Shown piece by piece: positions 931 through 15,698 of a stretch of 64,000 bases of DNA (positions are counted from its first letter, which is position 1; every line of letters starts with the position of its first letter). The notes under the pieces were generated by a model. That model was not told the DNA's origin, did no database searches, and saw only the letters and a list, made by a program, of their open reading frames with translations. The position numbers were made by a program, and so were the translations under genes. The stretch covers positions 310,001-374,000 of the forward strand of contig NZ_QGGP01000001.1 in the NCBI RefSeq assembly GCF_003148645.1, in the 5' to 3' direction. This stretch comes from Xanthomarina spongicola (GTDB taxonomy: Bacteria > Bacteroidota > Bacteroidia > Flavobacteriales > Flavobacteriaceae).

Positions 931-1731
931 ATGAATAAAAATCTACAAACAGCCATAGAAGCTTCTTTAAAAGCGGGTCAAGTTATTATGGAAGTTTATA
1001 ACACCCCTTTTAATGTCGAGTTAAAAGATGATAAATCTCCCTTAACAGAGGCAGATAAAAAAGCGAATGATATTATTAATTCTTTTTTAATTCCTACGCA
1101 AATTCCAATCATTAGCGAGGAAAATAAACAAACAGATTATTCAGTTAGAAAAGACTGGAAACTTTGTTGGGTTGTAGACCCTGTAGACGGAACTAAAGAA
1201 TTTATTAAACGTAATGGTGAGTTTACAGTAAATATAGCTTTAGTAAGTAACGGAAGACCAATATTAGGAGTCATTTATGTGCCTGCTACTAAAGTTTTAT
1301 ATTATGCAGATGTTACACTTCAAAAAGGATATAAAGTAAATTTAAAATCTCATGAAGTAAGTATCCAAAAAATTACAGAAAGCGCAACACCATTGAAACC
1401 TAAAGCAGGAAATACAGATCTTATTCAAGTTGTTGGAAGCCGTTCTCATATGAGTCAAGAAACATTAGATTTTATGGAGACACTAAAAGTAAACGGAACT
1501 CAAGTAGAAGTAGTTTCAAAAGGAAGTTCATTAAAATTTTGTTTGGTTTCAGAAGGGAACGCCGATATCTATCCTCGTTTTGCTCCAACTATGGAGTGGG
1601 ATACTGCAGCTGGTCAAGCTATATGTAATGCTGTTGGTATAGAAGTTATCTCTAAAGAAACTAATAAACCACTTTTATATAATAAAGAGAATCTCTTAAA
1701 CCCATGGTTTATAGTTTCTAAAATCAACTAA
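931..1731 (+). CDS. cysQ: 3'(2'),5'-bisphosphate nucleotidase CysQ
   Basis: A 266-residue enzyme of the inositol-monophosphatase superfamily that hydrolyses PAP (3'-phosphoadenosine 5'-phosphate) to AMP. PAP is left over after sulfotransferases or PAPS reductase use PAPS. The metal-binding signatures are present: EEN near residue 71, DPVDGTKEFI near 88-97 and WDTAAG near 218-223. It is the first gene of a tight run (1 base to the next gene) with cysC, cysD and cysN. Two PAPS-type sulfotransferases lie 12 kb downstream in the same orientation, so removal of PAP made during polysaccharide sulfation is its likely job here (inference). Confidence 0.93.
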   Translation: MNKNLQTAIEASLKAGQVIMEVYNTPFNVELKDDKSPLTEADKKANDIINSFLIPTQIPIISEENKQTDYSVRKDWKLCWVVDPVDGTKEFIKRNGEFTVNIALVSNGRPILGVIYVPATKVLYYADVTLQKGYKVNLKSHEVSIQKITESATPLKPKAGNTDLIQVVGSRSHMSQETLDFMETLKVNGTQVEVVSKGSSLKFCLVSEGNADIYPRFAPTMEWDTAAGQAICNAVGIEVISKETNKPLLYNKENLLNPWFIVSKIN

Positions 1732-1732
1732 T

Positions 1733-2185
1733 ATGTCTCCATATAAAAAAGAATCACATTTTCGGAGTATTATAAAAGGCATTTCTTGGAGAATCGTTGC
1801 TACTACAGACACTATTTTAGTTGTACTTTTAGTAACTTGTCTTACCGGAGAATGTAGCATAGAGAATGCCTTAAAGATTGGTTTATTTGAATTTATTATA
1901 AAACTAGCAATCTATTATTTCCACGAAAGAGTATGGTTAAACATATTAAAAAAACAAGCTACAACAAATAAAGAAATAGTTTATAAATCTATTTCTTGGA
2001 GATTTGTAGCTACTTCAACTACATTTATTATTTCGGGAATTGTATTAAAATCGTTTAACGAAGTAGCATTATATATTGCTCTTACAGAATTATTTACGAA
2101 ATTTGTACTTTATTATTTGCATGAAAAAGCTTGGTTAAAATTACCCTTAGGAAGAATTAGAAATTTTTTCTTAGGAAGAAAATAA
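1733..2185 (+). CDS. DUF2061 membrane protein, tandem duplication
   Basis: A 150-residue protein made of two copies of a DUF2061-like unit. Each starts with a Ser-Trp-Arg-x-Val-Ala-Thr segment (about residues 19-25 and 88-94) and ends with a Tyr-Tyr-x-His-Glu-(Arg/Lys) segment (about 62-67 and 128-133). Four hydrophobic stretches suggest an inner-membrane protein. It lies between cysQ and cysC with gaps of 1 and 4 bases, so it is very probably co-transcribed with sulfate activation. The family has no established function; a part in sulfate uptake is only a guess from position. Confidence 0.85.
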   Translation: MSPYKKESHFRSIIKGISWRIVATTDTILVVLLVTCLTGECSIENALKIGLFEFIIKLAIYYFHERVWLNILKKQATTNKEIVYKSISWRFVATSTTFIISGIVLKSFNEVALYIALTELFTKFVLYYLHEKAWLKLPLGRIRNFFLGRK

Positions 2186-2189
2186 AAAA

Positions 2190-2789
2190 ATGAAAGAGAA
2201 CATTATTCCACATTCATATCAAATTTCAAGACAAGATAGAAAAGAAGCAAATAATCACAACTCTTTTCTTATGTGGTTTACTGGACTTTCTGGTTCAGGA
2301 AAATCTACAATTGCAAATGTCGTTGAACAGGAACTATTTAAACTTGGAATTAAGACTTATATTTTAGATGGAGATAATATTAGAAAGGGTATAAATAGTG
2401 ATCTTACTTTTTCACCTGAAGATCGAACAGAAAACATTAGACGTATTGCAGAAGTAGCTAACTTATTGGTTGATTCAGGACTTGTAGTTTTAGCAGCTTT
2501 TGTTTCGCCTTATAAAAAAGATAGAGAGAATATCAAAAATATCGTTAAAGATGTTAATTTTGTTGAAATTTATGTGAATACCAGTGTTGAAGAATGCGAG
2601 CGTAGAGATGTAAAAGGTCTCTATAAAAAGGCAAGAGCTGGAGAAATAAAAAATATGACAGGAATTTCTGCTCCGTATGAAGCACCGGAAAATCCGGATG
2701 TTGAAATAAAAACAGAAAAAGAATCTGTTGAACAAGCTGTTAAACAGATTATAGAATATATAACACCAAAATTAAAACTCAAAAAATGA
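2190..2789 (+). CDS. cysC: adenylylsulfate (APS) kinase
   Basis: A 199-residue kinase that phosphorylates APS to PAPS, the universal sulfuryl donor. The P-loop GLSGSGKS is at residues 32-39, followed by LDGDNIRKGIN, the AAFVSPYKKDR segment that holds the family's phospho-serine, and the lid/substrate segment MTGISAPYEAPENPDVEI. Length is normal for a stand-alone CysC. The stop overlaps the cysD start by 4 bases (ATGA), indicating translational coupling. Where sulfur assimilation can proceed from APS, a dedicated APS kinase chiefly serves sulfation, which fits the sulfotransferases in this locus. Confidence 0.95.
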   Translation: MKENIIPHSYQISRQDRKEANNHNSFLMWFTGLSGSGKSTIANVVEQELFKLGIKTYILDGDNIRKGINSDLTFSPEDRTENIRRIAEVANLLVDSGLVVLAAFVSPYKKDRENIKNIVKDVNFVEIYVNTSVEECERRDVKGLYKKARAGEIKNMTGISAPYEAPENPDVEIKTEKESVEQAVKQIIEYITPKLKLKK

Positions 2790-3691
2790 GTAAATATTAT
2801 TTAAATTATTTAGACGAATTAGAAAGTGAAGCCATTTTTATTTTAAGAGAAGTTTGGGCACAGTTTCAAAATCCAGTTATCTTATTTTCTGGTGGAAAAG
2901 ATTCAATCTTAGTGACGCATCTAGCTAAAAAGGCATTTTATCCAGCTAAAATCCCTTTTCCTTTAATGCATGTAGACACTGGTCATAATTTTCCTGAAAC
3001 TATTCAATTTAGAGATAATATTATAAAAGAATTAGGTGTTAACCTTATTGTTGGTTCAGTACAGGAATCTATTAATGATGGACGTGTAGCCGAAGAAAAA
3101 GGTAAAAATGCCACAAGAAATGCGCTTCAAATAACTACATTATTAGATGCTATTGAGGCTAATAAAGTAGACTGTGCTATTGGAGGAGGAAGACGTGACG
3201 AAGAGAAAGCCAGAGCTAAAGAAAGATTTTTTTCACACAGAGATGATTTTGGTCAATGGGATCCAAAAAATCAACGCCCAGAACTATGGAATATTTTTAA
3301 TGGAAAACATTTTCAAGGCGAACATTTTAGAGCTTTCCCAATTAGTAATTGGACAGAAATGGATGTATGGAATTATATTAAAAGAGAAAATATAGCTATC
3401 CCATCATTATATTTTGCACATGAAAGAGAAGTGGTTTGGAGACAGGACACTTGGATACCAAATTCTGAATTTTTGATATTAGAAGACCACGAGGAGGTAG
3501 TAGTTAAAAAAATTCGATTTAGAACTTTAGGTGATATTACAATTACAGGTGGAGATGAGTCTGAAGCAGATACTTTAGAGAAAATTGCTGCAGAAGTTGC
3601 CGGAATGAGAAATACTGAACGAGGAAACAGAAGTGATGATAAACGTTCAGAATCTGCAATGGAAGACAGAAAAAGACAAGGGTATTTCTAA
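2786..3691 (+). CDS. cysD: sulfate adenylyltransferase subunit 2 (CysD)
   Basis: A 301-residue catalytic subunit of heterodimeric ATP sulfurylase, which makes APS and pyrophosphate from ATP and sulfate. The PP-loop SGGKDS is at residues 35-40. The MHVDTGHNFPET, GGGRRDEEKARAKER and FRAFPISNWTEMDVW segments typical of CysD follow, and the C-terminus RSDDKRSESAMEDRKRQGYF is the usual family ending. It needs the GTPase CysN encoded 56 bases downstream. The 3' end contains no sign of fusion. Confidence 0.97.
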   Translation: MSKYYLNYLDELESEAIFILREVWAQFQNPVILFSGGKDSILVTHLAKKAFYPAKIPFPLMHVDTGHNFPETIQFRDNIIKELGVNLIVGSVQESINDGRVAEEKGKNATRNALQITTLLDAIEANKVDCAIGGGRRDEEKARAKERFFSHRDDFGQWDPKNQRPELWNIFNGKHFQGEHFRAFPISNWTEMDVWNYIKRENIAIPSLYFAHEREVVWRQDTWIPNSEFLILEDHEEVVVKKIRFRTLGDITITGGDESEADTLEKIAAEVAGMRNTERGNRSDDKRSESAMEDRKRQGYF

Positions 3692-3747
3692 AAAATAAGT
3701 TTCAATTTTTTGCTTTTGCAAGAATTATAAAATAAAGAACAAAATAC

Positions 3748-5001
3748 ATGTTAGACAATAATCAATTATTACGCTTTACTACAGCAGGAAGTGTAGATGA
3801 TGGAAAAAGTACCTTGATTGGACGTTTACTTTACGATTCAAAATCTATTTTTGAAGACCAACTACAAGCTATTGAAAAAACCAGCAAGAAAAAAGGTCAT
3901 GATGGAGTAGATTTGGCTTTGTTTACAGATGGCCTTCGCGACGAAAGAGAACAAGGAATCACCATTGATGTAGCTTACAGATATTTTACAACACCAAAAA
4001 GAAAGTTTATTATAGCAGATACACCTGGACATATTCAATATACAAGGAATATGGTTACGGGAGCTTCAACAGCTAATGTTGCTACAATCTTAATTGATGC
4101 AAGACATGGTGTGATAGAACAAACCAAAAGACATGCTTTTATAGCCTCCTTATTGCAAATACCGCATATAATAGTTTGTATTAATAAAATGGATTTAGTG
4201 GATTATTCAGAAGAAGTATATAACAATATCGTTAGACAATTTGAAGATATATCGTCAAAAATGTTAGTAACAGATGTCCGTTTTATTCCTATGAGCGCAT
4301 TGAATGGAGATAATGTAGTAAATAAATCTGAAAACATGCCTTGGTATCAAGGAGCGCCAATGCTTCACACATTAGAGACTATGCATATTAGTAGCGATAT
4401 TAATAAAGTAGATGCTCGTTTCCCTGTACAAACTGTCTTAAGACCACAGAGGGAAGGCTTTATAGATTATAGAGGTTATGCTGGGCGAGTAGCAAGTGGG
4501 ATTTTTAGAAAAGGAGACGAAATTACGGTTATGCCATCTGGCTTTACAAGTAAAATAAAAACTATAGATACTTTAAAAGGAGAATTAGAAGAAGCTTATG
4601 CTCCTATGTCTGTTTCTATAACTCTTGAAGATGATATAGATATAAGCAGAGGCGACATGATTGTTCGTTCTAATAATAAACCAGAAGCACTACAGGATAT
4701 AGAAGTTATGCTATGTTGGTTGAATAATAATCCTGCCAAACCTAGAGCCAAATACACAATTAAACATACGTCTAACGAGCAAAAGGCCATGATTAAAGAA
4801 GTGGTATACAAATACAATATTAATACTCTAGATCGAATACATGATGATAACGAGCTTAATATGAATGATATTTGTAAAGTAAAAATTCGAACCACAAAAC
4901 CATTAATGGTTGACTCCTATAGAGAGAATAGAACCACTGGAAGTATTATTCTTGTAGATGACTCAACAAACGAAACTGTTGCAGCAGGAATGATAGTCTA
5001 A
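3748..5001 (+). CDS. cysN: sulfate adenylyltransferase subunit 1, GTPase (CysN)
   Basis: A 417-residue EF-Tu-like GTPase that drives APS synthesis by CysD. The G1 motif GSVDDGKS is at residues 14-21, DTPGH near 90 and NKMD near 147, followed by two beta-barrel domains. At 417 residues it is a stand-alone CysN; there is no C-terminal APS kinase as in CysNC, consistent with the separate cysC upstream. It is the last classical sulfate-activation gene of the run; a pyrophosphatase follows after 56 bases. No PAPS/APS reductase (cysH) gene is found within the window. Confidence 0.97.
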   Translation: MLDNNQLLRFTTAGSVDDGKSTLIGRLLYDSKSIFEDQLQAIEKTSKKKGHDGVDLALFTDGLRDEREQGITIDVAYRYFTTPKRKFIIADTPGHIQYTRNMVTGASTANVATILIDARHGVIEQTKRHAFIASLLQIPHIIVCINKMDLVDYSEEVYNNIVRQFEDISSKMLVTDVRFIPMSALNGDNVVNKSENMPWYQGAPMLHTLETMHISSDINKVDARFPVQTVLRPQREGFIDYRGYAGRVASGIFRKGDEITVMPSGFTSKIKTIDTLKGELEEAYAPMSVSITLEDDIDISRGDMIVRSNNKPEALQDIEVMLCWLNNNPAKPRAKYTIKHTSNEQKAMIKEVVYKYNINTLDRIHDDNELNMNDICKVKIRTTKPLMVDSYRENRTTGSIILVDDSTNETVAAGMIV

Positions 5002-5057: not shown

Positions 5058-5654
5058 ATGTATACAAAAGCAGACATATTATTTGTCATTTTCATGTGTT
5101 TATTTTCATGTAAACAAGCAGAAGACTATTACCATTTACCAACATATTCTTCAAACAATATACTTCAAGCTGTTATTGAAATTCCTGCAGGAACTAACAA
5201 AAAATTCGAATACAATAGCCAGACCAATACATTTGAGATTGACAAAAAAAATGGTGTAGAAAGAGTTATTCAATTTTTGCCTTACCCAGGGAATTATGGT
5301 TTTATTCCTTCAACATATTCTAATCCAGAAAAAGGAGGCGATGGTGATGCACTAGATGTATTAGTATTATCTGAAACTGTATCCACTGGAACTGTTATAG
5401 AAATTATTCCTATAGGTGTTTTAAAACTAATTGATGATGGCGAAATCGACTCTAAAATTATTGCTATTCCTGCAAACAGTTTAAAACAGATTATAAAAGT
5501 AAAAACTTATCAAGAATTTTTAATTAAATACCCAGAAGCTAAAAATATTATTGAAAGTTGGTTTTTAAATTATAATAAAGAAGATCTAGCTTCAATAAAT
5601 GGTTGGGGAACTGAACAGGAAGCTATTTTAGAAATTGAAAATAGCAAACTATAA
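5058..5654 (+). CDS. ppa: inorganic pyrophosphatase (family I), predicted lipoprotein
   Basis: A 198-residue family I pyrophosphatase. By comparison with the E. coli enzyme the active-site residues appear to be kept: E41, K49, R69, Y80 (YPGNYG), D95, D97, D100, D126, D131 and K133. In the signature the usual Pro is Ala98 (DGDALDVLVL). The first 18 residues are a hydrophobic segment ending LFSC, a lipobox, so the enzyme is probably a lipoprotein and not the cytosolic housekeeping form. Residues after the Cys read KQAED, resembling the surface-export signal described for flavobacterial lipoproteins (inference). It follows cysN by 56 bases. ATP sulfurylase releases pyrophosphate, but on the other side of the membrane from where this enzyme should sit. 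Confidence 0.88.
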   Translation: MYTKADILFVIFMCLFSCKQAEDYYHLPTYSSNNILQAVIEIPAGTNKKFEYNSQTNTFEIDKKNGVERVIQFLPYPGNYGFIPSTYSNPEKGGDGDALDVLVLSETVSTGTVIEIIPIGVLKLIDDGEIDSKIIAIPANSLKQIIKVKTYQEFLIKYPEAKNIIESWFLNYNKEDLASINGWGTEQEAILEIENSKL

Positions 5655-5708
5655 TGAGTATGCTTGTTACATTAATAAACCTAGTTTTTTAATTTTAAAT
5701 TAAAATAT

Positions 5709-6545
5709 ATGAATAAAGCCATATACTTTTTAATATTTGTATTAATATATTCATGTAATAATAACAGTAAATCACAGTTAAATCACAGCTCTGCTAAAAA
5801 ATACTTACATCTATCTCACACTAGAACGAATAAAAATCCAAAAATGGATAGTGTTATAGAAACTATTGATTATACAAAATATGATATGTTATGGCTTGGT
5901 GGAGATTTAGCTAAATCAACTTCTATAAGTAGAAATGCCATTACACATGTAGATTCAATTTTTAATTTGGGGAGTACAAATACATTATGGTCTTTAGGAA
6001 ACCACGATTATAGAAATTTAAGTTTAGTTAAAGAGCATACAAATAGATTACCATATTATTCCTATCATAAAAACGGTATTACTTTTTTAGTATTAGACAC
6101 ACAAGATAGTCTAAGCAATATTGTTGGCAAGCAGATGCAATTAGTAAGAAAAGTTGTAGACACCTTAAAGCATTCGTCACATTTATTAATTTTACACCAT
6201 AAACTAATCTGGATGTATAATAATCCAGAGCTAGAATCTAGGGTAAAGAAAACCTCAAATGGCAAGATAGGTGACTGTTTTCATTGTATAAATCCTAATA
6301 ATTTTTATTCAGATATATATCCATTACTATTAAAAACAAAGCAAAAGGGAATAGAAGTTATTTGTATTGGTGGAGATATTGGTTATAAAACAAAAGAGTT
6401 TGAATATGTAACTCCCGAAGGTGTTTATTTTCTTGCGTCTGGAATAAAATTTAATCATAATTCTGAGAATAAAGGGTTAGTGTTTGAACACGATATTCTT
6501 ACAAAGAAATTAAAATGGGATTTTGTGCTTCTTCCAATGCTTTAA
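5709..6545 (+). CDS. calcineurin-like metallophosphoesterase, predicted lipoprotein
   Basis: A 278-residue protein with a lipoprotein signal (LIYSC, Cys16). Core metallophosphoesterase motifs are visible: GGD at 64-66, GNHD at 97-100 and a His pair at 163-164. The first motif, normally Asp-x-His, reads SHTR at 36-39, and the last, normally Gly-His-x-His, reads GGDIG at 221-225. Four usual metal ligands are therefore missing, so metal use or substrate is likely altered. It lies between the lipoprotein pyrophosphatase (54 bases upstream) and the CotH/VTC genes, pointing to a periplasmic or surface job on a phosphate-containing polymer. The substrate is unknown. Confidence 0.78.
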   Translation: MNKAIYFLIFVLIYSCNNNSKSQLNHSSAKKYLHLSHTRTNKNPKMDSVIETIDYTKYDMLWLGGDLAKSTSISRNAITHVDSIFNLGSTNTLWSLGNHDYRNLSLVKEHTNRLPYYSYHKNGITFLVLDTQDSLSNIVGKQMQLVRKVVDTLKHSSHLLILHHKLIWMYNNPELESRVKKTSNGKIGDCFHCINPNNFYSDIYPLLLKTKQKGIEVICIGGDIGYKTKEFEYVTPEGVYFLASGIKFNHNSENKGLVFEHDILTKKLKWDFVLLPML

Positions 6546-6628
6546 TCCTTTTTTAAATAATGATAATTAACTTTAATTTCAATAAAAAGGAATAAGTTAG
6601 CTTGAAAAGAATGTTAGTAAAAATAACA

Positions 6629-6636
6629 TATATTTG
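6629..6636 (+). promoter_or_regulatory. candidate -7 element (TAnnTTTG) for the CotH/VTC genes
   Basis: TATATTTG matches the flavobacterial -7 consensus, 28 bases before the start codon at 6665 and inside a 119-base gap. The best -33 candidate (CTTG at 6601-6604) is 24 bases away, longer than the usual 17-23, so the assignment is tentative. If real, the CotH/VTC/export genes can be transcribed apart from the cys genes. Confidence 0.45.
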
Positions 6637-6664
6637 CAACTATTTTCAAGACTAATATAATAAT

Positions 6665-9220
6665 ATGTTAAGTAATTTTTTAAAGAAACATTCATTAATT
6701 CTTCTTGTTGGAATACCAATTATTTTATTACTTATCTTTTCTGTTTTTTCTAATTCTGAAGATGAAATTGAACAAGGTGATTTTGTTAAATATTATAACG
6801 AATTACCTCAAAAGTACACTGCTATTTTTAATAAAATAAAAAAAGATTCTACTAATTTTTTCTGTACAATTTTAGAAGAATACGGAAACAGAGAATTGAT
6901 AATTTTTAAAAAAGCTCCAGTTAATCAATTATTAAAAACAGATTTTATAATTACAGTTTTTCCAGAAACTGATAATTACTTATCAAAACCTTTAAGGCTT
7001 AATTTAGTTAATGATGCTGTAATTTTTAATTATGAAAATGTAACTTATGGCTTTCATAGAATTTCATTACCATTTATTAATACAGAAAAACTTGAAGTAA
7101 AAAGAAAAGTTTTAAATAAGCATCAAAAAAAGTGGGACACATTAATACAAACCCCTTTTAAAACAACTCTAAAGCCAGATATTTATATTGGAGAAAGTAA
7201 AGGGTTTGATAAACTATCAAACCCATATTTTTCATTATTTACAGATTTATTAAAATTAAGAGGTATTCGTTTTTTACCTTATTCATATGTATTTAAAAAC
7301 GACTCATTATATCAAACTAAACCAGAAGTAGAAAAATATTTTTTAGAAGAAAAGTTAACCCTAGGTAAAATTCAAAAACCAGTTTTATTTTGGGAAGCTT
7401 TAAATGCAAAAAACAAAAATTTATTAGAATTAATCCAATTTAGTGGAGAGAACAAAGGTCAGGCCATGACGTTAATTCAAGATTTAATTACTGAAGAAAA
7501 AGAGATTAGCGAGGTATTTAATCTTGAAAAAACAGCACAATATTTTGCAATAAAAGATTTATTTATTTCTAGATGTAACGAGTATGTATATTTTTTATAT
7601 AATTCAACTAATAAGTTGCTCGAACCATATTTTGTTCATTCTGAATGCTTAGGTAAAGTTTCTGATTTTATAGAGAAACCATTAATACATGACATTAACT
7701 TTATTGACTTTTATTTAAGCGAGTTAGACAAACTAACTAATCTAGATATTAAAACCGATTTACTAAACAACAATACAACTTTCGAAGAAGAGTTAAGCTT
7801 CATTAACTCTTATCATCCAGATTTAATATTCGACATTGATGTTTTAAACATTAATCAAAGAATAATTTTTCAAAATATAAATGACACCCAAGCCATAAAG
7901 CCTGAAGTAATAAGTGTTGATAAAAATAAAATGATACTATCGATACTTAATTTAAGTAAATATCCAGTAAATATTATTGGGCTTAATCATGAAAAGAAAA
8001 AATCCATAACACTTTTAAATTCCAATAAGCAGATTTTAAGTGGTAAAAAGGATACTATTATAATCAATTTACCAAGAAGTTTTGAAAACCTCTTTGTAAG
8101 TAAAAAGACTAAGGAAGTAGGCTTTAAACTTTATAAGCATATTTATGATTTATATATATCATATTCAATTGTAGGAATAAATAACACCCTTTATTCTTCA
8201 ATTTTACCATATCAGGAAAAAGAAGAAGTAACCCAGGATATATTTAGAGATTCCATAAATATCTCAGACAGAAATGATATTGTAATATATAATAAGAAAA
8301 ACATTATTACATTTAAAGAAAAAAACATAACAATTAGCACGCCTTTAATAATTCCAAACAACCATACATTTGTAATTAAAGAAGGCACTATAATTGATGT
8401 TGTTGAAGGAGGAAAAATAATTTCTCATTCTCCCATAAAATTTAATGGTACTAAAGAAAACCCAATTGTAATAAGATCTTCAGATAAAAAAGGGCAGGGC
8501 ATTTTAGTATTAAGTGAAGATCAACCCAATATTGTGAATTATACAATTTTTGATTACTTAACTAATCTGGAACATGGCTTTTGGAATGTTACTGGAGCTG
8601 TTACATTTTATGAGTCTCCAGTAACTTTAAATAACGTAACAGTTAGTAATAATAGATGTGAAGACGCTTTAAATATTATTAGAACCACTTTTGAAATGCG
8701 AAATTGTACACTATCTAATACACAATCTGATGCCTTTGATGGAGATTTTGTTGTTGGTACAATAAAAGATTCAAAATTTATAAACCTTGGTAATGACGCT
8801 ATAGATGTTTCGGGGTCCGACATTAATATTTTCAATGTTCAAATATCAGAAGCAGGAGATAAAGGTTTAAGCGCAGGAGAAGACAGTAAAATGACAGTAA
8901 AGAACGTATATATATCAACAAGTGAAATTGCAGTAGCAGGAAAAGATTTATCTGTAATTAATATAGATAAATTATTCATAGAAAATACCAAACTTGCTTT
9001 TACTGCATTCCAGAAAAAGCCAGAATTTGGACCTTCTAATATAACTGCAATAGATGTAAAAATGGAGAATGTTGAAATTAAGTACTTAGTAGAGAGCACT
9101 TCAAGTCTATTAATGGAAGGTGTAAAAGTAGAGACATCTCAAAATGTAAAAGATAGAATGTATGGAGCTGAATTTGGTATAAGTAGTGATGAAACTAGAA
9201 ATAAACAATATAATAACTAG
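6665..9220 (+). CDS. membrane-anchored CotH-like / parallel beta-helix protein
   Basis: An 851-residue protein with one N-terminal membrane segment (about residues 9-27) and a long extracytoplasmic part. The middle region (about 170-360) weakly resembles the core of CotH-kinase-like proteins, including a YFAIKDLFISRCNEYVYFLYN stretch whose flanks continue the similarity. From about residue 540 to the end, short repeated hydrophobic strands with Asn and Gly turns (for example NNVTVSNNR, MRNCTLSNTQSDAFDGD, FINLGNDAIDVSG) indicate a right-handed parallel beta-helix, a fold common in polysaccharide-binding or -cleaving proteins. It ends 12 bases before the VTC gene. The function is unknown, and the CotH resemblance is by eye only. 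Confidence 0.65.
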   Translation: MLSNFLKKHSLILLVGIPIILLLIFSVFSNSEDEIEQGDFVKYYNELPQKYTAIFNKIKKDSTNFFCTILEEYGNRELIIFKKAPVNQLLKTDFIITVFPETDNYLSKPLRLNLVNDAVIFNYENVTYGFHRISLPFINTEKLEVKRKVLNKHQKKWDTLIQTPFKTTLKPDIYIGESKGFDKLSNPYFSLFTDLLKLRGIRFLPYSYVFKNDSLYQTKPEVEKYFLEEKLTLGKIQKPVLFWEALNAKNKNLLELIQFSGENKGQAMTLIQDLITEEKEISEVFNLEKTAQYFAIKDLFISRCNEYVYFLYNSTNKLLEPYFVHSECLGKVSDFIEKPLIHDINFIDFYLSELDKLTNLDIKTDLLNNNTTFEEELSFINSYHPDLIFDIDVLNINQRIIFQNINDTQAIKPEVISVDKNKMILSILNLSKYPVNIIGLNHEKKKSITLLNSNKQILSGKKDTIIINLPRSFENLFVSKKTKEVGFKLYKHIYDLYISYSIVGINNTLYSSILPYQEKEEVTQDIFRDSINISDRNDIVIYNKKNIITFKEKNITISTPLIIPNNHTFVIKEGTIIDVVEGGKIISHSPIKFNGTKENPIVIRSSDKKGQGILVLSEDQPNIVNYTIFDYLTNLEHGFWNVTGAVTFYESPVTLNNVTVSNNRCEDALNIIRTTFEMRNCTLSNTQSDAFDGDFVVGTIKDSKFINLGNDAIDVSGSDINIFNVQISEAGDKGLSAGEDSKMTVKNVYISTSEIAVAGKDLSVINIDKLFIENTKLAFTAFQKKPEFGPSNITAIDVKMENVEIKYLVESTSSLLMEGVKVETSQNVKDRMYGAEFGISSDETRNKQYNN

Positions 9221-9232
9221 AATACTTTATAT

Positions 9233-9973
9233 ATGACTTTGCTAGACATAAAACAAGATAAAGATATTCATTTAATTGAAGCTAAAAACAATTATCGTTT
9301 TGAGCGTAAATTTACAGTGCCTACAAGTTATACTGTTAAAACCGTAGAGCAGTTTGTAAAGAGAAATACGCATCTATTTAGAGAGGTTTTTCACTTAAGA
9401 CAAGTCAATAATATCTATTTCGATACAGAAATATATAACGATTATTTTGATAATGTTTTAGGTGTATCAGACAGAAAAAAGATTAGAATTAGATGGTATG
9501 GAAACACTTTTGGCGTTATTCAAAACCCCGTTTTAGAAATTAAAATTAAAAAAGGTTTGGTTGGAGACAAATGGTCTTATAAGTTGAAGCCTTTTACACT
9601 AGATAATACGTTTACCAATAATTATATTCAAGATATTTTTAAAGACTCAAATTTACCTATTCCAATTTTGGAATCTGTTAAAATGGTAGCTCCTAAATTA
9701 TTAAATTCATACAATAGAAGATATTTTTTATCTGCTGATAATAAATTTAGAATTACAATTGATTTTGATTTAATTTATTATAAAATAGATAAGCGCTTCA
9801 ATAATTTTAGCGTGAAAAAGCCAGCACAAGATGAAAATAAAATAATAGAACTTAAATATGAATTGCAAGAAGATGATTTAGCAAATAAAATTTCAACAGA
9901 ATTTCCATTTAGATTAAATAAAAATTCTAAATATGTAAATGGTGTTAACACCATAAAACAATTTCCACAATAA
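9233..9973 (+). CDS. VTC-domain (polyphosphate polymerase-like) protein
   Basis: A 246-residue soluble protein with the VTC tunnel-domain motifs in order: ERKF (24-27), YFDT (62-65), RKKIRIR (81-87), LEIKIKKG (101-108), NRRYF (161-165), FRITIDFDL (172-180), IELKYEL (205-211) and SKYVNG (232-237). The Lys, Arg and Glu residues that in yeast Vtc4 bind phosphate, nucleotide and metal seem to be present, so polymerase chemistry from ATP is possible (inference). There is no signal peptide, so it should be cytoplasmic, probably docked on the DUF4956 membrane protein encoded 29 bases downstream. This gene pair plus CotH-like proteins recurs in bacteria, but I know of no established function. Confidence 0.87.
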   Translation: MTLLDIKQDKDIHLIEAKNNYRFERKFTVPTSYTVKTVEQFVKRNTHLFREVFHLRQVNNIYFDTEIYNDYFDNVLGVSDRKKIRIRWYGNTFGVIQNPVLEIKIKKGLVGDKWSYKLKPFTLDNTFTNNYIQDIFKDSNLPIPILESVKMVAPKLLNSYNRRYFLSADNKFRITIDFDLIYYKIDKRFNNFSVKKPAQDENKIIELKYELQEDDLANKISTEFPFRLNKNSKYVNGVNTIKQFPQ

Positions 9974-10002
9974 AAAAAATAACAATTTAAAGAGTAATTA
10001 TA

Positions 10003-10680
10003 ATGCAAGACAATTCAATTTTAAACGACATCGCCAACCAATTTGGTTCAGGAGAATCATCTATTCTAGATTTTATAATAAACATATTCATAACCATTAT
10101 TTTGGCTTACATTATTGGTTTAATATATTCTAGATATGGCAACTCCTTATCTAACCGAAAAAAATTAATACAAACATTCGTATTACTTGCTTTAACAGTT
10201 ATGCTGGTTATTTCAATTGTAAAATCTTCTTTAGCATTATCTTTAGGCTTGGTTGGTGCTTTGTCTATTGTAAGATTTAGAACCGCTATTAAAGAACCAG
10301 AGGAATTAGCCTATTTTTTTGTTGCGATAGCTATGGGTTTGGGTATGGGAGCAAACCAACGTATTGTAACTTTAATTGGAGCAATTATAATTATTCTATA
10401 TGTAGTTTTACAAAATTTTAATTCTGCTAAGAAACAAAAACTACAAAACTTAATCATTACAATTTCAAATACAACAGATAAAGGTTTAGACGAGAATAAA
10501 ATTTTAGAACTTTTAAAAAATCATACCACAAAATTAGATTTAAGAAGATTAGATAATATTAATAACAATACAGAACTATCCTTAAATGTAGAATTTAAAG
10601 ATCTAAAAAGCATTTTAAATGCTAAAAACGACCTTAAAGCATTAGGAGATATACAGTTTAGTTTTATAGAAAATTATTAA
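10003..10680 (+). CDS. DUF4956 integral membrane protein
   Basis: A 225-residue protein with about four hydrophobic helices between residues 22 and 135 and a soluble C-terminal domain of about 90 residues. The conserved DUF4956 core is visible: LVGALSIVRFRTAIKEPEEL followed by an AMGLGMGA helix. The charged motif inside the membrane region suggests a channel or scaffold for an anionic molecule (inference). It is coupled to the VTC gene (29 bases) and the CotH-like gene (3 bases). The usual genomic partner of DUF4956 is a VTC-domain protein, as here. Confidence 0.87.
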   Translation: MQDNSILNDIANQFGSGESSILDFIINIFITIILAYIIGLIYSRYGNSLSNRKKLIQTFVLLALTVMLVISIVKSSLALSLGLVGALSIVRFRTAIKEPEELAYFFVAIAMGLGMGANQRIVTLIGAIIIILYVVLQNFNSAKKQKLQNLIITISNTTDKGLDENKILELLKNHTTKLDLRRLDNINNNTELSLNVEFKDLKSILNAKNDLKALGDIQFSFIENY

Positions 10681-10683
10681 TTA

Positions 10684-12504
10684 ATGAAGCTTAAATCTTC
10701 AAATAAAAAAACATATCTATTTATAGGTGGTTTACTATTTTGTATTGTGTTTCTTTTTGCTTTCAAAGAAATATACACAAAGAAGCCAACTAAATACCCT
10801 TTACCACCATTAATTGAAAAAAAAACAGGATTAGATTTAATTCAAATTTCACTCAATGAAAAAAACTATCTTAAACTTAAGAAAAAAAGAGATAAGGCTT
10901 TAAGCGTAGGAATTTTAGAAACTAATGATTCAGATTATGTTCCTGCAACTATAACTTATCAAGATGAAAATTATAGAGCAGAGATAAGATTAAAAGGAGA
11001 TTGGACAGATCATTTAAAAGATGACAAATGGTCTTTTAGAATAAAATTAAAAGACAATAAAACCATAATGGGTATGCGTAAGTTTTCTGTGCATAGACCT
11101 GAATCTAGAGGCTTTATTAATGAATGGCTTTATCATAAAGCAATAAAAGCTGAAAAAATAATGGGTTTAAGATATGGGTTTCTAGAGGGAATGATTCATG
11201 TTAAAAAAAATCATTCATCAGAATACTTAACTAAAGAAGTAGGTATTTATGCTATTGAAGAATCTTTTGATAAACGAACTATTGAAAGTAATGCAAGGAA
11301 AGAAAGTGTTATATTAAAATTCTCTGAAGAAGATTTTTGGGCTAAAGTAAAAAGGAGTAAGGCTATAGGAGACCCATCTGGTATTTTTTGGCGAAACTTT
11401 ATGAGTTTAGATGTAGATTTTCCTATAACTACATTTGGTGAAGATAAAGTATTACAAAACGAAACTTTACATCAATATTTTAAGCTAAGTAAAAATTTGT
11501 TAAGTGATTTACGAAATGGCAATAAAACTATTGACCAGGTTTTTGATGTTAAAGAGTTAGCCATGCAAAATGCTATTCTAAATTTATTTGGGGCTACACA
11601 TGGTGTATATGCCATAAATGTTAGGTTTTATTATAATCCAATTACTAGCAAGTTAGAACCATTAGCATTTGATGGAAACGCTGGAAAAATCATTGACAAC
11701 TATATACATTTTGATTTTCTTAATTCACAAAAAGATTCAATTTATTTAAAAGAGCTGGCTTATGCTTTAGAAAAAGTTTCTAATCCTAGTTATCTAAATA
11801 ACATAGTACAAAAACATAAAGAAGAGCTTACATATTTTAAAAAAGAATTAAAAAATGAGTATAGATGGCCACTTATAAAAATTGAAAACTTTGAAAAAAA
11901 CCAAATGATTTTAAAAAATGAACTAATAAGGCTAAAAAATATATATAATATTGAAAACATTACTATACCAACAGAATTAAATGAACTGAATACCCTTGAC
12001 GAAATTAAAATTTCCGAACCAAATAAATGGCAAAATAAAAATATAAATATCAGTCAAGTTAAAAACACCAAGAATGTATATAAATTAGAAAGAAGCAACC
12101 CAAATCAAGCTGCATATGTTATTATAGATAGCTTAAAAACATATTTAAATACAACTTATAAAATATCTATGTTAATTAAAAAAGGCGATATTGGAAATGC
12201 TTTCGGGCTTAGGGTTCAAGGTGTTTTTCCAAATAGAATAGATGCTGTTTTTAATTTAGAGGAAGGAACTTTAAAAAATATTGCCAATACAGGAAGCTTT
12301 ATTAACGAAGGGGCAACAATAAAAAAACAAGATGATAATTGGTTTGAAATAACTGTTAAGGTAAAACCAAACACAAATATTATTAAACTTGTATTTGGAC
12401 CCACAAATATAGATAGCCAAATATTAAAGTGGGTTAGTCCAACTACTAATAAAGAAAGTTCTTTTATAAATTACTCAAGTTTAAAAATTGAAGAATTAAA
12501 ATAA
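10684..12504 (+). CDS. CotH-like protein with C-terminal beta-sandwich
   Basis: A 606-residue protein with an N-terminal membrane anchor (about residues 10-28), the rest extracytoplasmic. Residues about 95-340 show the CotH-type order: EIRLKGDW, WSFRIKL, then FSVHRPESRGFINEWLYHKA, GIYAIEESFDKRTIE and LEPLAFDGNAG, the last in the place of the WDxD metal motif of CotH kinases. Residues about 450-606 look like a jelly-roll carbohydrate-binding domain. CotH proteins are atypical kinases or phosphotransferases, so transfer of phosphate to a surface polymer or protein is possible but untested. It closes the VTC/DUF4956 set; a 56-base gap precedes wzx. Confidence 0.75.
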   Translation: MKLKSSNKKTYLFIGGLLFCIVFLFAFKEIYTKKPTKYPLPPLIEKKTGLDLIQISLNEKNYLKLKKKRDKALSVGILETNDSDYVPATITYQDENYRAEIRLKGDWTDHLKDDKWSFRIKLKDNKTIMGMRKFSVHRPESRGFINEWLYHKAIKAEKIMGLRYGFLEGMIHVKKNHSSEYLTKEVGIYAIEESFDKRTIESNARKESVILKFSEEDFWAKVKRSKAIGDPSGIFWRNFMSLDVDFPITTFGEDKVLQNETLHQYFKLSKNLLSDLRNGNKTIDQVFDVKELAMQNAILNLFGATHGVYAINVRFYYNPITSKLEPLAFDGNAGKIIDNYIHFDFLNSQKDSIYLKELAYALEKVSNPSYLNNIVQKHKEELTYFKKELKNEYRWPLIKIENFEKNQMILKNELIRLKNIYNIENITIPTELNELNTLDEIKISEPNKWQNKNINISQVKNTKNVYKLERSNPNQAAYVIIDSLKTYLNTTYKISMLIKKGDIGNAFGLRVQGVFPNRIDAVFNLEEGTLKNIANTGSFINEGATIKKQDDNWFEITVKVKPNTNIIKLVFGPTNIDSQILKWVSPTTNKESSFINYSSLKIEELK

Positions 12505-12560
12505 TTTTTTATAAAATAAGTGTTTGTGTACGTACATAATTATTGCATTGTATAATTTTT

Positions 12561-13865
12561 ATGCATAAAATAAAAAAAATAGTAATAGAGTTATATAATA
12601 ACGAGTTAATTAGTAAAAGCGTTAAGGTTCTGCTTTTAAGAGTTTTAGGGGTTTTACTGTTTTTTTCAACAACTCTTTTTATTACAAATTTCATTGACCC
12701 AATAACTGTTGGAAAGTATGATTTTACTAGATCTACACTTATTATCTTAGGAGGATTAAGTGTTATAGGTATGAATCAGTCTATAATTTATTATTCAGGG
12801 TATTTAGTTTCAAACAATGCATTCAATCACTTAAAGCAATTATATATAAAAATGATAATTATCATTTTTTGTATCTCTTTGATTTTAGGCTTTTTATACC
12901 TTTTAATTAATGATGACTTTATAAATTCTTTTTTTGAAAAGCAAGTTTCAAATTTAATCTTAAAGTCTGTAGTAACCATCTTTTTTTATGGCTTAACTAT
13001 GCTTAATATAGATGTATTTAGAGCTATTAACAAAATTTATATTTCAGAATTATTTAGAAATGTTTTTAGGTTTGTTTTCTTTTTTCTTGCAGTAATAGGT
13101 GTTTATTACACCAATAATAGTAATTGGTTGGTAGATGTGTTTTTATTGAACTTTTTACTATTAGCTATTGTCTCTACAGTAATTCTGTTGTTATATTTTA
13201 ATAAAATCAGATTAACAGAAAACTCGTTTAATTTTTCCTATAAAACAATAATTAAACGATCCTGGCCAATGGCAATAAGCACAATAGCATTAGTTTTAAT
13301 GCAAAGTGTCGATGTTATTCTATTAGGAAAATTTACTAATTTCGAAACAGTTGCATATTATTCAGCAGCAATAAAATTAACAACAATAATATCTTTAGTA
13401 CTTACTTCTGTAAATGCAGTCTTTGCTCCTAAAATCGCTGAATTATATAGTAACAAAGATTTTTTAAATCTGAATTTAAGTTTAAAAAAAGCAACGAGAC
13501 TTATTTTTATTTTAACTATTCCCGGAATCGTTTTGCTAGCAGTGTTTTCTACAGTATTTTTATCTTTTTTTGGAGAAGGATATATGCAGGCAAAAAATGC
13601 CTTGATTATATTATTATTAGGGCAAACAGTAAATGCATTATGTGGCTCTGTAGGTGTGTATATGAATATGACTGGAAAACAAAATATATTACAAATAATA
13701 TTAATAAGTTCATTTTTATTAAACCTAATATTAAACTGGCTATTTATTCCTTTATATGGCATGATTGGCGCAGCTAGTGCCACAAGTATTAGTATGGTTT
13801 TATGGAATATAACTGGAACTATTTATCTTTTTAAAACAGATAAAATAAAAACATTTTTAAATTAA
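12561..13865 (+). CDS. wzx: Wzx-type polysaccharide flippase
   Basis: A 434-residue protein of the MATE-like (MOP) flippase superfamily with about 12-14 membrane helices. It would flip undecaprenyl-diphosphate-linked repeat units to the periplasmic face. The ATG at 12561 (MHKIKKIVIELYN) is preferred to the TTG at 12543, since family members usually begin just before the first amphipathic Lys-rich segment. Residues around WPMAISTIALVLMQSVDVILLG match the conserved second-half entry of Wzx. It is followed after 6 bases by the first sulfotransferase. Sequence identity between flippases is low, so the substrate cannot be read. Confidence 0.88.
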   Translation: MHKIKKIVIELYNNELISKSVKVLLLRVLGVLLFFSTTLFITNFIDPITVGKYDFTRSTLIILGGLSVIGMNQSIIYYSGYLVSNNAFNHLKQLYIKMIIIIFCISLILGFLYLLINDDFINSFFEKQVSNLILKSVVTIFFYGLTMLNIDVFRAINKIYISELFRNVFRFVFFFLAVIGVYYTNNSNWLVDVFLLNFLLLAIVSTVILLLYFNKIRLTENSFNFSYKTIIKRSWPMAISTIALVLMQSVDVILLGKFTNFETVAYYSAAIKLTTIISLVLTSVNAVFAPKIAELYSNKDFLNLNLSLKKATRLIFILTIPGIVLLAVFSTVFLSFFGEGYMQAKNALIILLLGQTVNALCGSVGVYMNMTGKQNILQIILISSFLLNLILNWLFIPLYGMIGAASATSISMVLWNITGTIYLFKTDKIKTFLN

Positions 13866-13871
13866 TAATTA

Positions 13872-14789
13872 ATGGCATTACCTAATTTTATCATTGCAGG
13901 GTTCCCTAAATGTGGGTCAACGTCATTGCATTATTATTTAGAAGAGCACCCTGAAATCTTTATGCCAAAGCAAAAAGAACTTCACTATTTTACATATAAC
14001 ATTTTATCTAGCATGACTGCTGGCCCACAAGATAATGAAGTTAATAAATTTCATATTAATTCCTTTAGGGAATACCAAAAATGCTATAATGATGTAAAAA
14101 ATGAAATTGCTATTGGCGAAGCATCACCTTCTTATATAAATTATGATTCCTGTATTCCAGATTTAAAAGAAAAGTTAGGGGACAATGTTAAGATTGTAAT
14201 CCTGTTAAGAGATCCAATAAAAAGAGCTTATTCAAATTACCTACATTTAGTAAGAGAGCATAGAGAAAAATTAAATTTTAAGGATGCTATTTATGAAGAG
14301 CCAAATAGAGTGAAAGCAACTTATTCAGATTTTTGGTATTACACATTTAATTCCTTTTATTACAAGAAAATAAAAGCATATAAGGAAGCTTTTAAAAATG
14401 TATTACTAATTACAACCGAAGAATTAAATAATAACACCGAAGAAACTGTAAAGAAAGTCTATCGTTTTTTGGAAGTAGATACAGAGTTTTCACCTAATAA
14501 TATAGACAGGCGTTATAATCCTGGAGGAGTTTATAGCGATAATTTGATAACAAGATTAGTCTTTAAACAAAGTAGCTTTAGAGTTTTTATTAAAAAAATT
14601 ATGCCAATTACACCATGGATGAAACACCTAAAACATAAAGTAATTGGAAATTTTAAAAAAGAAACACCTCAAATAAACCAAGAAACGGAAGATTATTTAA
14701 TAAATCTATTTAAAGAAGACGTTATAATGCTGAAAAAGGATTTTAATGTTAAAACAGAATTATGGAATTCTAAATTTTCTGAGAATTAA
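13872..14789 (+). CDS. PAPS-dependent sulfotransferase 1
   Basis: A 305-residue cytosolic-type sulfotransferase. The 5'-phosphosulfate-binding loop GFPKCGSTSLHYYL is at residues 10-23, and the 3'-phosphate-binding motif is VILLRDPIKRAYSNYL, with Arg113-Asp-Pro and Ser121. These bind PAPS; the enzyme moves the sulfuryl group to an acceptor, presumably a sugar hydroxyl of the repeat unit made by neighbouring glycosyltransferases. Its start lies 6 bases after wzx, and sulfotransferase 2 follows after 3 bases. With cysQ, cysC, cysD and cysN in the same locus, the polymer is predicted to be sulfated. Confidence 0.92.
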   Translation: MALPNFIIAGFPKCGSTSLHYYLEEHPEIFMPKQKELHYFTYNILSSMTAGPQDNEVNKFHINSFREYQKCYNDVKNEIAIGEASPSYINYDSCIPDLKEKLGDNVKIVILLRDPIKRAYSNYLHLVREHREKLNFKDAIYEEPNRVKATYSDFWYYTFNSFYYKKIKAYKEAFKNVLLITTEELNNNTEETVKKVYRFLEVDTEFSPNNIDRRYNPGGVYSDNLITRLVFKQSSFRVFIKKIMPITPWMKHLKHKVIGNFKKETPQINQETEDYLINLFKEDVIMLKKDFNVKTELWNSKFSEN

Positions 14790-14792
14790 AAA

Positions 14793-15698
14793 ATGAAAGA
14801 CCTAACATTACCAAACACATTTTTAATAGGTGCACAAAAAGCTGCTACTACTTCTGTTTATAGCTGGTTAGCACAACATACAGAGATTTGCGCTCCTATG
14901 GCTGTTAAAGATTATGCGTTTTTTACAAGAGACGAATTTTACGCTAAAGGGTTAAGCCATCTTTCAAACTTTTATGAAGACGAGCATAAAAACGAAAAAA
15001 TAGTATTACAAGGAAGTGTTCATTATATATTTTTCGAAAAAGCATTAAAAAGAATCCAAGAATTTAATCCAAATTCTAAATTCATACTTATCGTTAGAAA
15101 TCCAATTGAAAGAGCTATTTCGGCTTATCAATATGCTCTTAAATTTAATTATGAAAACCTACCTATTAAAGAAGCTTTTGCTAAGGAGGAAGAACGATTA
15201 AAAGGTTGTGATGTACGTACATTATCTGAGTTAACATATAAGCATCATGGATTATACTATAAACAAATACAAACATTTTTAAAATATTTTAAAAAAGAAC
15301 AACTAAAGGTAGTATTGTATGATGATGTTTCAGAAAACTCTAATCAGGTAGTAAAAGATTTGTTTACTTTTTTAAACATTGATGATGGTTTTATTCCAGA
15401 ATTTAAGTCATTAAATAATACTGGAGATATTAAAAATAAAACATTTCAAAAAATCGTTTTTGGAGATGGAGCTTTTAGGAATTTTCTAGTAAAAAAGGTT
15501 TTTAAATCAATTATTTCAGATGCTTTAAAAGCAAAGTTAAGATGGAAAATTATTCATTTAAATACAAAAGAAAAGCAATCAACTTATTTAGATGCAATTG
15601 ATGTAGATTTAAAAAATGAATTAATTTCTTTTTTCAAACAAGATATAGAACATTTAGAAGTTTTTTTATCAAAAGATTTAAGTTCATGGAAAATATAA
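14793..15698 (+). CDS. PAPS-dependent sulfotransferase 2
   Basis: A 301-residue sulfotransferase of the same superfamily as its neighbour but clearly divergent from it. The 5' loop reads FLIGAQKAATTSVYSWL (residues 10-26) and the 3' motif FILIVRNPIERAISAYQ, with Arg102-Asn-Pro and Ser110. The Ala-Gln-Lys-Ala-Ala form of the loop is typical of heparan N-sulfotransferase-like bacterial members. Two different enzymes suggest sulfation at two positions or on two sugars. Gaps are 3 bases upstream and 1 base downstream, so it is in the same transcript as wzx and the Wzy-like gene. Confidence 0.91.
   Translation: MKDLTLPNTFLIGAQKAATTSVYSWLAQHTEICAPMAVKDYAFFTRDEFYAKGLSHLSNFYEDEHKNEKIVLQGSVHYIFFEKALKRIQEFNPNSKFILIVRNPIERAISAYQYALKFNYENLPIKEAFAKEEERLKGCDVRTLSELTYKHHGLYYKQIQTFLKYFKKEQLKVVLYDDVSENSNQVVKDLFTFLNIDDGFIPEFKSLNNTGDIKNKTFQKIVFGDGAFRNFLVKKVFKSIISDALKAKLRWKIIHLNTKEKQSTYLDAIDVDLKNELISFFKQDIEHLEVFLSKDLSSWKI

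Follow-up and report, generated by a model that had tools for sequence, protein, structure and literature searches.

CotH, a poly-phosphate polymerase and DUF4956, together with DUF4832 or a diguanylate cyclase/phosphodiesterase (DGC/PDE), have been described as the accessory group of Gram-positive pelDEADAFG operons; the function of this group was not established in that study, whose authors speculated on regulation through protein phosphorylation (PMC7112168). Two VTC genes, a CotH gene and a glycosyltransferase family 2 (GT2) 'chitin synthase' gene form part of the NELoc-2 locus of Clostridium perfringens, for which no function was established either (PMC2879425). We analysed six consecutive genes in a stretch of 64,000 nucleotides of the Xanthomarina spongicola genome (contig NZ_QGGP01000001.1), hereafter called the window. 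They encode a family I inorganic pyrophosphatase (PPase), a phosphoesterase, two large proteins named here CotA and CotB, a VTC-domain protein and a DUF4956 membrane protein (Table 1). An earlier, sequence-only reading of the window had stated that no described system has this make-up; this was too strong, as the sets of the two studies above are similar. Our literature searches, which did not cover bioRxiv and most subscription journals, found only genomic mentions of VTC, DUF4956 and CotH in relation to a common function.

Comparison with the Gram-positive Pel accessory group showed that both contain the same three families, contiguous and adjoining exopolysaccharide synthesis genes. The window set differs by its CotH subfamily, which is fused or paired to a beta-helix, by its PPase and phosphoesterase accessories, and by its occurrence in Bacteroidota, either with a sulfated capsule or free-standing. 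A histidine in place of the catalytic aspartate was seen in the CotH proteins of the window type, to which this comparison was confined. No pel genes were seen in the flanks examined, and the window neighbours are genes for synthesis of 3'-phosphoadenosine-5'-phosphosulfate (PAPS), a flippase, sulfotransferases and glycosyltransferases. The NELoc-2 locus is alike in that its VTC and CotH genes adjoin a polysaccharide synthase gene, but it has two VTC copies, DUF4956 is not named there (the VTC neighbours being called tubulin/FtsZ GTPase) and a beta-helix is not reported. What is new here is a Bacteroidota version of the set in which CotH belongs to a His-type subfamily, is tied to a beta-helix and is linked to VTC-DUF4956 in 15 of 15 genomes, as well as the existence of cassettes that stand alone, the probable relationship of DUF4956 to MgtC and the reduction of the PPase to an accessory.

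The results of our survey of 299 Flavobacteriaceae genomes showed that the beta-helix domain is present in 15 of them and that VTC and DUF4956 genes are contiguous with it in all 15, so that co-occurrence within this core was obligatory. Fourteen of the 15 were found independently through a search with a single VTC sequence (hypergeometric chance of this overlap 4e-23, kinship ignored), and in the fifteenth, G346, DUF4956 and VTC are contiguous too. Two other species of the genus lack the module, and its distribution is thus patchy. In a sample of the class, 13 further loci with a VTC gene of the close type contained the CotH-like domain in every case, the beta-helix in 12, DUF4956 in 12 and the phosphoesterase in 11, the latter having been detected in 6 of the 15 flavobacterial loci. 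In a sample of the phylum, the three genomes possessing the CotH-like subfamily all have a member beside their best VTC gene, and DUF4956 is contiguous in both of those from outside the class (L151 and L152). Because the core recurs in these two lineages, the three proteins (VTC, DUF4956 and the CotH-fold/beta-helix protein) are a true module and not a coincidence of the capsule cluster. The recurrent multi-gene envelope module proposed earlier was therefore upheld by co-occurrence, with three core genes rather than six obligatory ones, the PPase accompanying only 8 of the 15. A chance arrangement of the six genes, or their hitch-hiking in a capsule cluster, is extremely improbable: the PPase and the phosphoesterase are indeed facultative, and 13 genomes have the PPase without the module, but the core is contiguous in 15 of 15 genomes and in distant classes and forms free-standing cassettes. 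For the three-gene core, chance clustering was refuted by the co-occurrence result.

We then examined the relationship of the two large proteins to CotH. Neither CotA nor CotB matched Pfam CotH (PF08757), and some relatives in the CotB subfamily exceeded the cut-off of this family (e.g., G020:C18:28621-29505 at 1.2e-9). Neither the CotB profile nor a genuine CotH protein produced a useful result when searched directly against PDB sequences, so that structure and profile-profile comparison were needed. The AlphaFold2 (AF2) model of CotB, obtained with 25 aligned sequences (pLDDT 89), had Bacillus cereus CotH (5jd9 and 5jda) as its top PDB matches (Foldseek, E 1.5e-13, TMt 0.66), and its C-terminal domain resembled modules of the carbohydrate-binding module (CBM) families CBM4/16/22, in agreement with the sugar-binding-like domain noticed earlier. 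The CotB profile aligned over 294 columns (hhalign P 98%, E 9e-14) with that of 20 CotH proteins, which were the open reading frames (ORFs) at Pfam CotH matches.

CotB shares with the spore coat kinase CotH (5jd9), a Fam20C-like atypical kinase, the fold and the Lys, Glu and metal Asn/Asp positions, and differs from it by H306, the beta-helix and CBM-like additions and the membrane anchor. Residues K115, E192/E193, N312 and D330 align with the Lys, Glu and metal positions of CotH; in the family, K115 is kept in 24 of 25 sequences, E192/E193 in 25 of 25 and N or D at position 312 in 24 of 25, and position 330 is Asp or Glu, the metal-site Asp being replaced by Glu in one group of relatives. In the profile alignment, H306 stands at the catalytic Asp of the CotH NxD motif, which we take to be D228 of Bacillus subtilis CotH. 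The D228Q form of the B. subtilis protein is inactive (PMC7821199). Histidine occupies this position in 24 of 25 sequences and again in the proteins of the distant loci L151 and L152, and because it is near-invariant over this range, H306 is read from the alignment as a specific substitution and not as decay.

In the most divergent cassettes (L045 6336-7883 and L091 6908-8419), the CotH-like part is apparently a separate ORF under the level of hidden Markov model (HMM) detection; judged by eye, these ORFs retain the H within a HHIQGDNNKY / NPHQITGNNDKW stretch. Class relatives L051-L057, L059 and L060 encode a second, genuine CotH-type protein of about 485-589 amino acids with an intact D-x-D motif, the gene of which lies between the VTC and the CotH/beta-helix genes and is in most cases followed by a polymerase-sized membrane ORF.

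In most relatives, a single protein of about 680-1170 residues carries both the CotH-like domain and the beta-helix. In the window and its nearest kin these are distributed over two genes, CotB corresponding to the CotH half and CotA to the last part of this half together with the beta-helix (HMM). The AF2 model of CotA (pLDDT 83) matched right-handed beta-helix glycan enzymes in Foldseek (GH87 glucanase, PL6 alginate lyase and AlgG epimerase), and CotH was absent from its top 50 matches. The CotH part of CotA is a partial HMM remnant in which the motifs with Lys, Glu, His and Asp are missing, and CotA is probably the non-catalytic member of a split pair. The two CotH-like proteins of the earlier reading were thus reduced to one with an intact fold (CotB, with His for the catalytic Asp), CotA being a degenerate remnant whose structure matches beta-helix enzymes and not CotH; the beta-helix attributed to CotA was confirmed. 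Since invariant acidic and basic residues are kept in the alignment of the beta-helix family, this domain is likely to bind glycan or to act on it.

It is rather improbable that the CotH-fold/beta-helix protein is a pseudokinase, serving as a glycan modifier or scaffold with no involvement of phosphate outside the cell. The loss of the catalytic Asp, the change of the metal-site Asp to Glu in one group and the relationship of the beta-helix to lyase, epimerase and glycanase folds with invariant acidic residues are consistent with such a protein, but the Lys, the Glu-Glu pair and the metal-site acid are near-invariant, as is the His, which is not decayed, and the partner VTC protein belongs to a family of ATP/polyphosphate enzymes.

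The VTC-domain protein exceeded the Pfam cut-off of 23 with 90.7 bits, and the profile of its 32 relatives matched yeast VTC4 structures (3g3q at 1.9e-12). The tunnel residues K26, R85, R87, K104, K113, R162, R173, E206, K208 and K233 were invariant in all 32 aligned sequences, which bears out the earlier claim of intact catalytic residues; loss of these residues was not found among the relatives. K26, R85, R87, K104, K113 and E206 register on K200, R264, R266, K281, K294 and E426 of VTC4 (numbers counted along the full-length chain 8i6v). The yeast R264A/R266A/E426N form is catalytically impaired (PMC9911596), and all three of these positions are invariant in our alignment. Polymerase activity of the window protein is therefore plausible. 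Comparison with the eukaryotic Vtc1/3/4 polyphosphate polymerase/translocase showed the same triphosphate tunnel metalloenzyme (TTM) catalytic domain and tunnel residues, whereas the window protein has neither an SPX domain nor a transmembrane (TM) domain of its own and is accompanied by the separate, MgtC-like DUF4956 membrane protein.

The DUF4956 protein reached 80.8 bits with its Pfam family (cut-off 30.6), and Y42, G82, I89, R91 and R93 are invariant in its alignment. The DUF4956 profile (38 sequences) was co-linear over its full length with that of the MgtC family (hhalign P 92%, E 6e-7, 200 columns), and P was below 1% for the flippase, Wzy and DUF2061 controls; the Pfam MgtC match of the window protein itself was weak (0.2). 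DUF4956 is thus a probable remote homologue of the MgtC/SapB family (PF02308), with a co-linear TM region and C-terminal domain, from which it differs by having only 13% identity and a conserved VGALSIVRFRTAIKEPEEL signature in place of the MgtC signature. Its role as a delivery channel is putative and suggested by gene position. The earlier proposal that it passes a polymer through the membrane drew on the same position and was not sustained, the protein looking MgtC-like.

VTC and DUF4956 could instead be a phosphate/ATP-sensing or regulatory pair controlling the CotH/beta-helix enzyme, with no export, the VTC protein being a triphosphate binder or hydrolase and DUF4956 an MgtC-like protein; we regard this as possible but doubtful. 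The full-length alignment with MgtC, the family of which regulates ATP synthase and phosphate uptake, points to such a pair, as do the existence of VTC-DUF4956 pairs without CotH and the fact that no polymer channel was identified. In addition, TTM-fold proteins are typically phosphatases (PMC8233210). However, the full set of polymerase residues, including E206, is invariant, and a regulatory pair leaves unexplained why the extracytoplasmic kinase fold is inseparable from VTC.

Comparison of genomic settings showed that the nearest relatives L032-L036 lie within PAPS/sulfation loci, the PAPS set coming after the module in L032 and L033 rather than before it as in the window, and that L037 lies outside such a locus. 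The cassettes of L038, L040 and L047 are among glycosyltransferase, sugar-transferase or Wzy genes, and those of L039, L041-L043 and L046 stand by themselves, flanked by topoisomerase, glutamate synthase, TatC or glmS-type genes. Since the cassette is found in both polysaccharide and housekeeping settings, it is self-contained. A polysaccharide target, as first proposed, agrees with the frequent polysaccharide context but not with the several modules outside polysaccharide loci; in this genome, a capsule acceptor is likely. A search of a plasmid collection with DUF4956 and the fused CotH/beta-helix protein gave no match, and a scan of genome contigs with a single-sequence query yielded just three near relatives.

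We tentatively propose that the module is an envelope phosphotransfer cassette, with phosphate transfer to a surface glycan as its most likely function, because the VTC tunnel is intact and the CotB kinase fold keeps Lys, Glu, Asn and Asp, because the beta-helix and CBM-like parts resemble polysaccharide-acting and polysaccharide-binding folds and many loci have capsule or glycosyltransferase neighbours, and because the core is linked in 15 of 15 genomes and contiguous outside the class. In the cytoplasm, the VTC protein would convert ATP to inorganic polyphosphate or a similar donor of phosphoryl groups, for which the MgtC-like DUF4956 protein would be the docking and delivery partner at the membrane. 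On the outer side of the membrane, phosphoryl groups would be moved onto the surface glycan by the CotH-fold protein, acting together with the beta-helix and with the CBM-like parts that bind glycan; in this genome, the acceptor would be the sulfated capsule for which the neighbouring genes are responsible. In loci that have them, the exported PPase and phosphoesterase would remove phosphate by-products. It is unlikely that the CotH-fold protein is a polyphosphate-fuelled kinase, an ATP-independent enzyme that would receive polyphosphate through the inner membrane from VTC-DUF4956 and phosphorylate the glycan without ATP, the conserved His at the catalytic Asp position carrying a phospho-intermediate.

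A polyphosphate coat, for which VTC-DUF4956 would extrude the polymer and the CotH/beta-helix protein would anchor or ligate it to glycan, has a low probability in our estimation. Eukaryotic VTC couples synthesis and translocation (PMC9911596). H306 could also suit a phospho-histidine intermediate. Against this, the polymer is not identified by the sequence, there is no known ligase of the CotH fold and, to our knowledge, family I PPases do not break down long polyphosphate.

Several results weigh against the phosphotransfer cassette. Bulk polyphosphate does not need the VTC protein, since the genome encodes its own polyphosphate kinase (PPK), and in the literature searched we found no demonstrated polymerase activity for VTC proteins of this bacterial group. 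DUF4956 resembles MgtC, a family without a known role in polymer export, and with His for Asp in CotB, as aligned, kinase chemistry cannot be assumed. Many VTC-DUF4956 pairs lack a CotH/beta-helix partner, and the cassettes among housekeeping genes mean that the capsule acceptor is not general.

The recurrence of VTC-DUF4956 pairs, already mentioned in the sequence-only reading, was confirmed with and without the CotH partner. In ten VTC loci of the distant type, DUF4956 is kept and the CotH-like subfamily is lacking. At three of them, a count that covers only those distant-type neighbours that were checked, the gene after the short VTC-DUF4956 pair encodes a DUF2490 (outer-membrane beta-barrel-like) protein (L048 10963-11655, L065 4745-5581 and L068 1901-2626). 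This suggests a second, different VTC-DUF4956 system, and VTC-DUF4956 therefore has more than one kind of partner.

The six genes were recovered as co-directional ORFs with unchanged coordinates, separated by 54, 119, 12, 29 and 3 nucleotides, and VTC, DUF4956, the PPase and the CotH fold can be assigned to their families with strong support. They are flanked by a PAPS-synthesis set and by a flippase and two sulfotransferase genes, from which we infer a sulfated-capsule locus; the capsule is probably sulfated. The PPase and the phosphoesterase have lipobox-type N-termini (...LFSC and ...IYSC), CotA and CotB have a single N-terminal TM stretch each, the VTC protein lacks such a stretch and the DUF4956 protein contains several hydrophobic ones. 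These signals support export of the PPase, the phosphoesterase, CotA and CotB. A promoter/terminator scan gave counts just modestly over those of shuffled sequence, and no clear operon boundary was found.

Table 1. Genes of the module and of its surroundings in the window.
Feature	Position	Strand	Evidence and status
Exported (lipoprotein-type) family I inorganic pyrophosphatase	5058-5654	+	PF00719 1.4e-35; accessory, non-dedicated
Exported (lipoprotein-type) divergent calcineurin-like phosphoesterase	5709-6545	+	PF00149 0.0012, alignment; accessory
CotA, membrane-anchored; degenerate CotH-like remnant ~210-401, right-handed beta-helix ~540-825	6665-9220	+	AF2, Foldseek, HMM; core (beta-helix half)
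VTC-domain protein, 246 amino acids, cytoplasmic, no TM	9233-9973	+	PF09359 1.3e-25; core
DUF4956 membrane protein, 225 amino acids, hydrophobic stretches and soluble C-terminal part	10003-10680	+	PF16316 1.3e-22; core
CotB, extracytoplasmic CotH-fold; TM anchor 12-30, kinase-like domain ~50-420, CBM-like C-terminal domain ~450-606	10684-12504	+	core (catalytic half)
PAPS-synthesis set cysQ, DUF2061, cysC, cysD, cysN	931-5001	+	context, outside module
Flippase of capsule locus	12543-13865	+	Pfam; context
Two sulfotransferases of capsule locus	13872-14789, 14793-15698	+	Pfam; context

The two exported phosphate hydrolases of the earlier reading fared differently, both having lipobox N-termini and the PPase a strong family match, but the phosphoesterase a weak one, under the Pfam cut-off. 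The PPase possesses the active-site set EIPAG..K.E, R, Y..NYG, GGDGD..D and D.GE.D.K, conserved in 12 homologues. This exported type was present in 21 of the 299 Flavobacteriaceae genomes, namely in 8 of the 15 with the module and in 13 of the 284 others (Fisher 7e-7, kinship ignored). The PPase is strongly associated with the module, yet it is an accessory and not dedicated to it, because 13 of the 21 genomes carry it without the module. In module-free Flavobacteriaceae (L140, L142, L144-L147; PPase ORF near 7-9 kb), it has a conserved locus between ORFs of 478-485 and about 840 amino acids; the topoisomerase-sized ORF of about 840 amino acids often adjoins the module-free PPase gene, and the same setting holds the cassette in L041 and L043. 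A partnership of the PPase with PAPS synthesis (CysD/CysN release pyrophosphate next door) was ruled out by the lipoprotein signal, and is also contradicted by its presence with cassettes outside PAPS loci (L038, L039, L041, L043 and L058) and by its solitary presence at further conserved loci. In the close relatives L034 (5313-5837) and L035 (14312-14842), cysN and the PPase gene are separated by an ORF of 174-176 amino acids that is missing from the window; the L034 copy had no Pfam match.

The phosphoesterase keeps the GGD (GD), GNHD and H metal motifs, with SHTR or AGHxxG as the first motif and GGD, AGD or SGS instead of the last GHxH, and so does not display the full calcineurin-like metallophosphoesterase set (DxH, GD, GNHD, H, GHxH). 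Because the last motif is lost, its predicted activity is uncertain.

Where kinase-fold proteins of the ATP-poor extracytoplasmic space obtain their phosphoryl donor is an old question, and a cassette in which a CotH fold outside the cytoplasm is never parted from a polymerase-type VTC protein and a membrane protein makes it testable with three genes. If the phosphotransfer cassette is real, this would be the first function for DUF4956 and for the bacterial branch of VTC, both of which recur by exopolysaccharide genes in Gram-positives and Bacteroidota.

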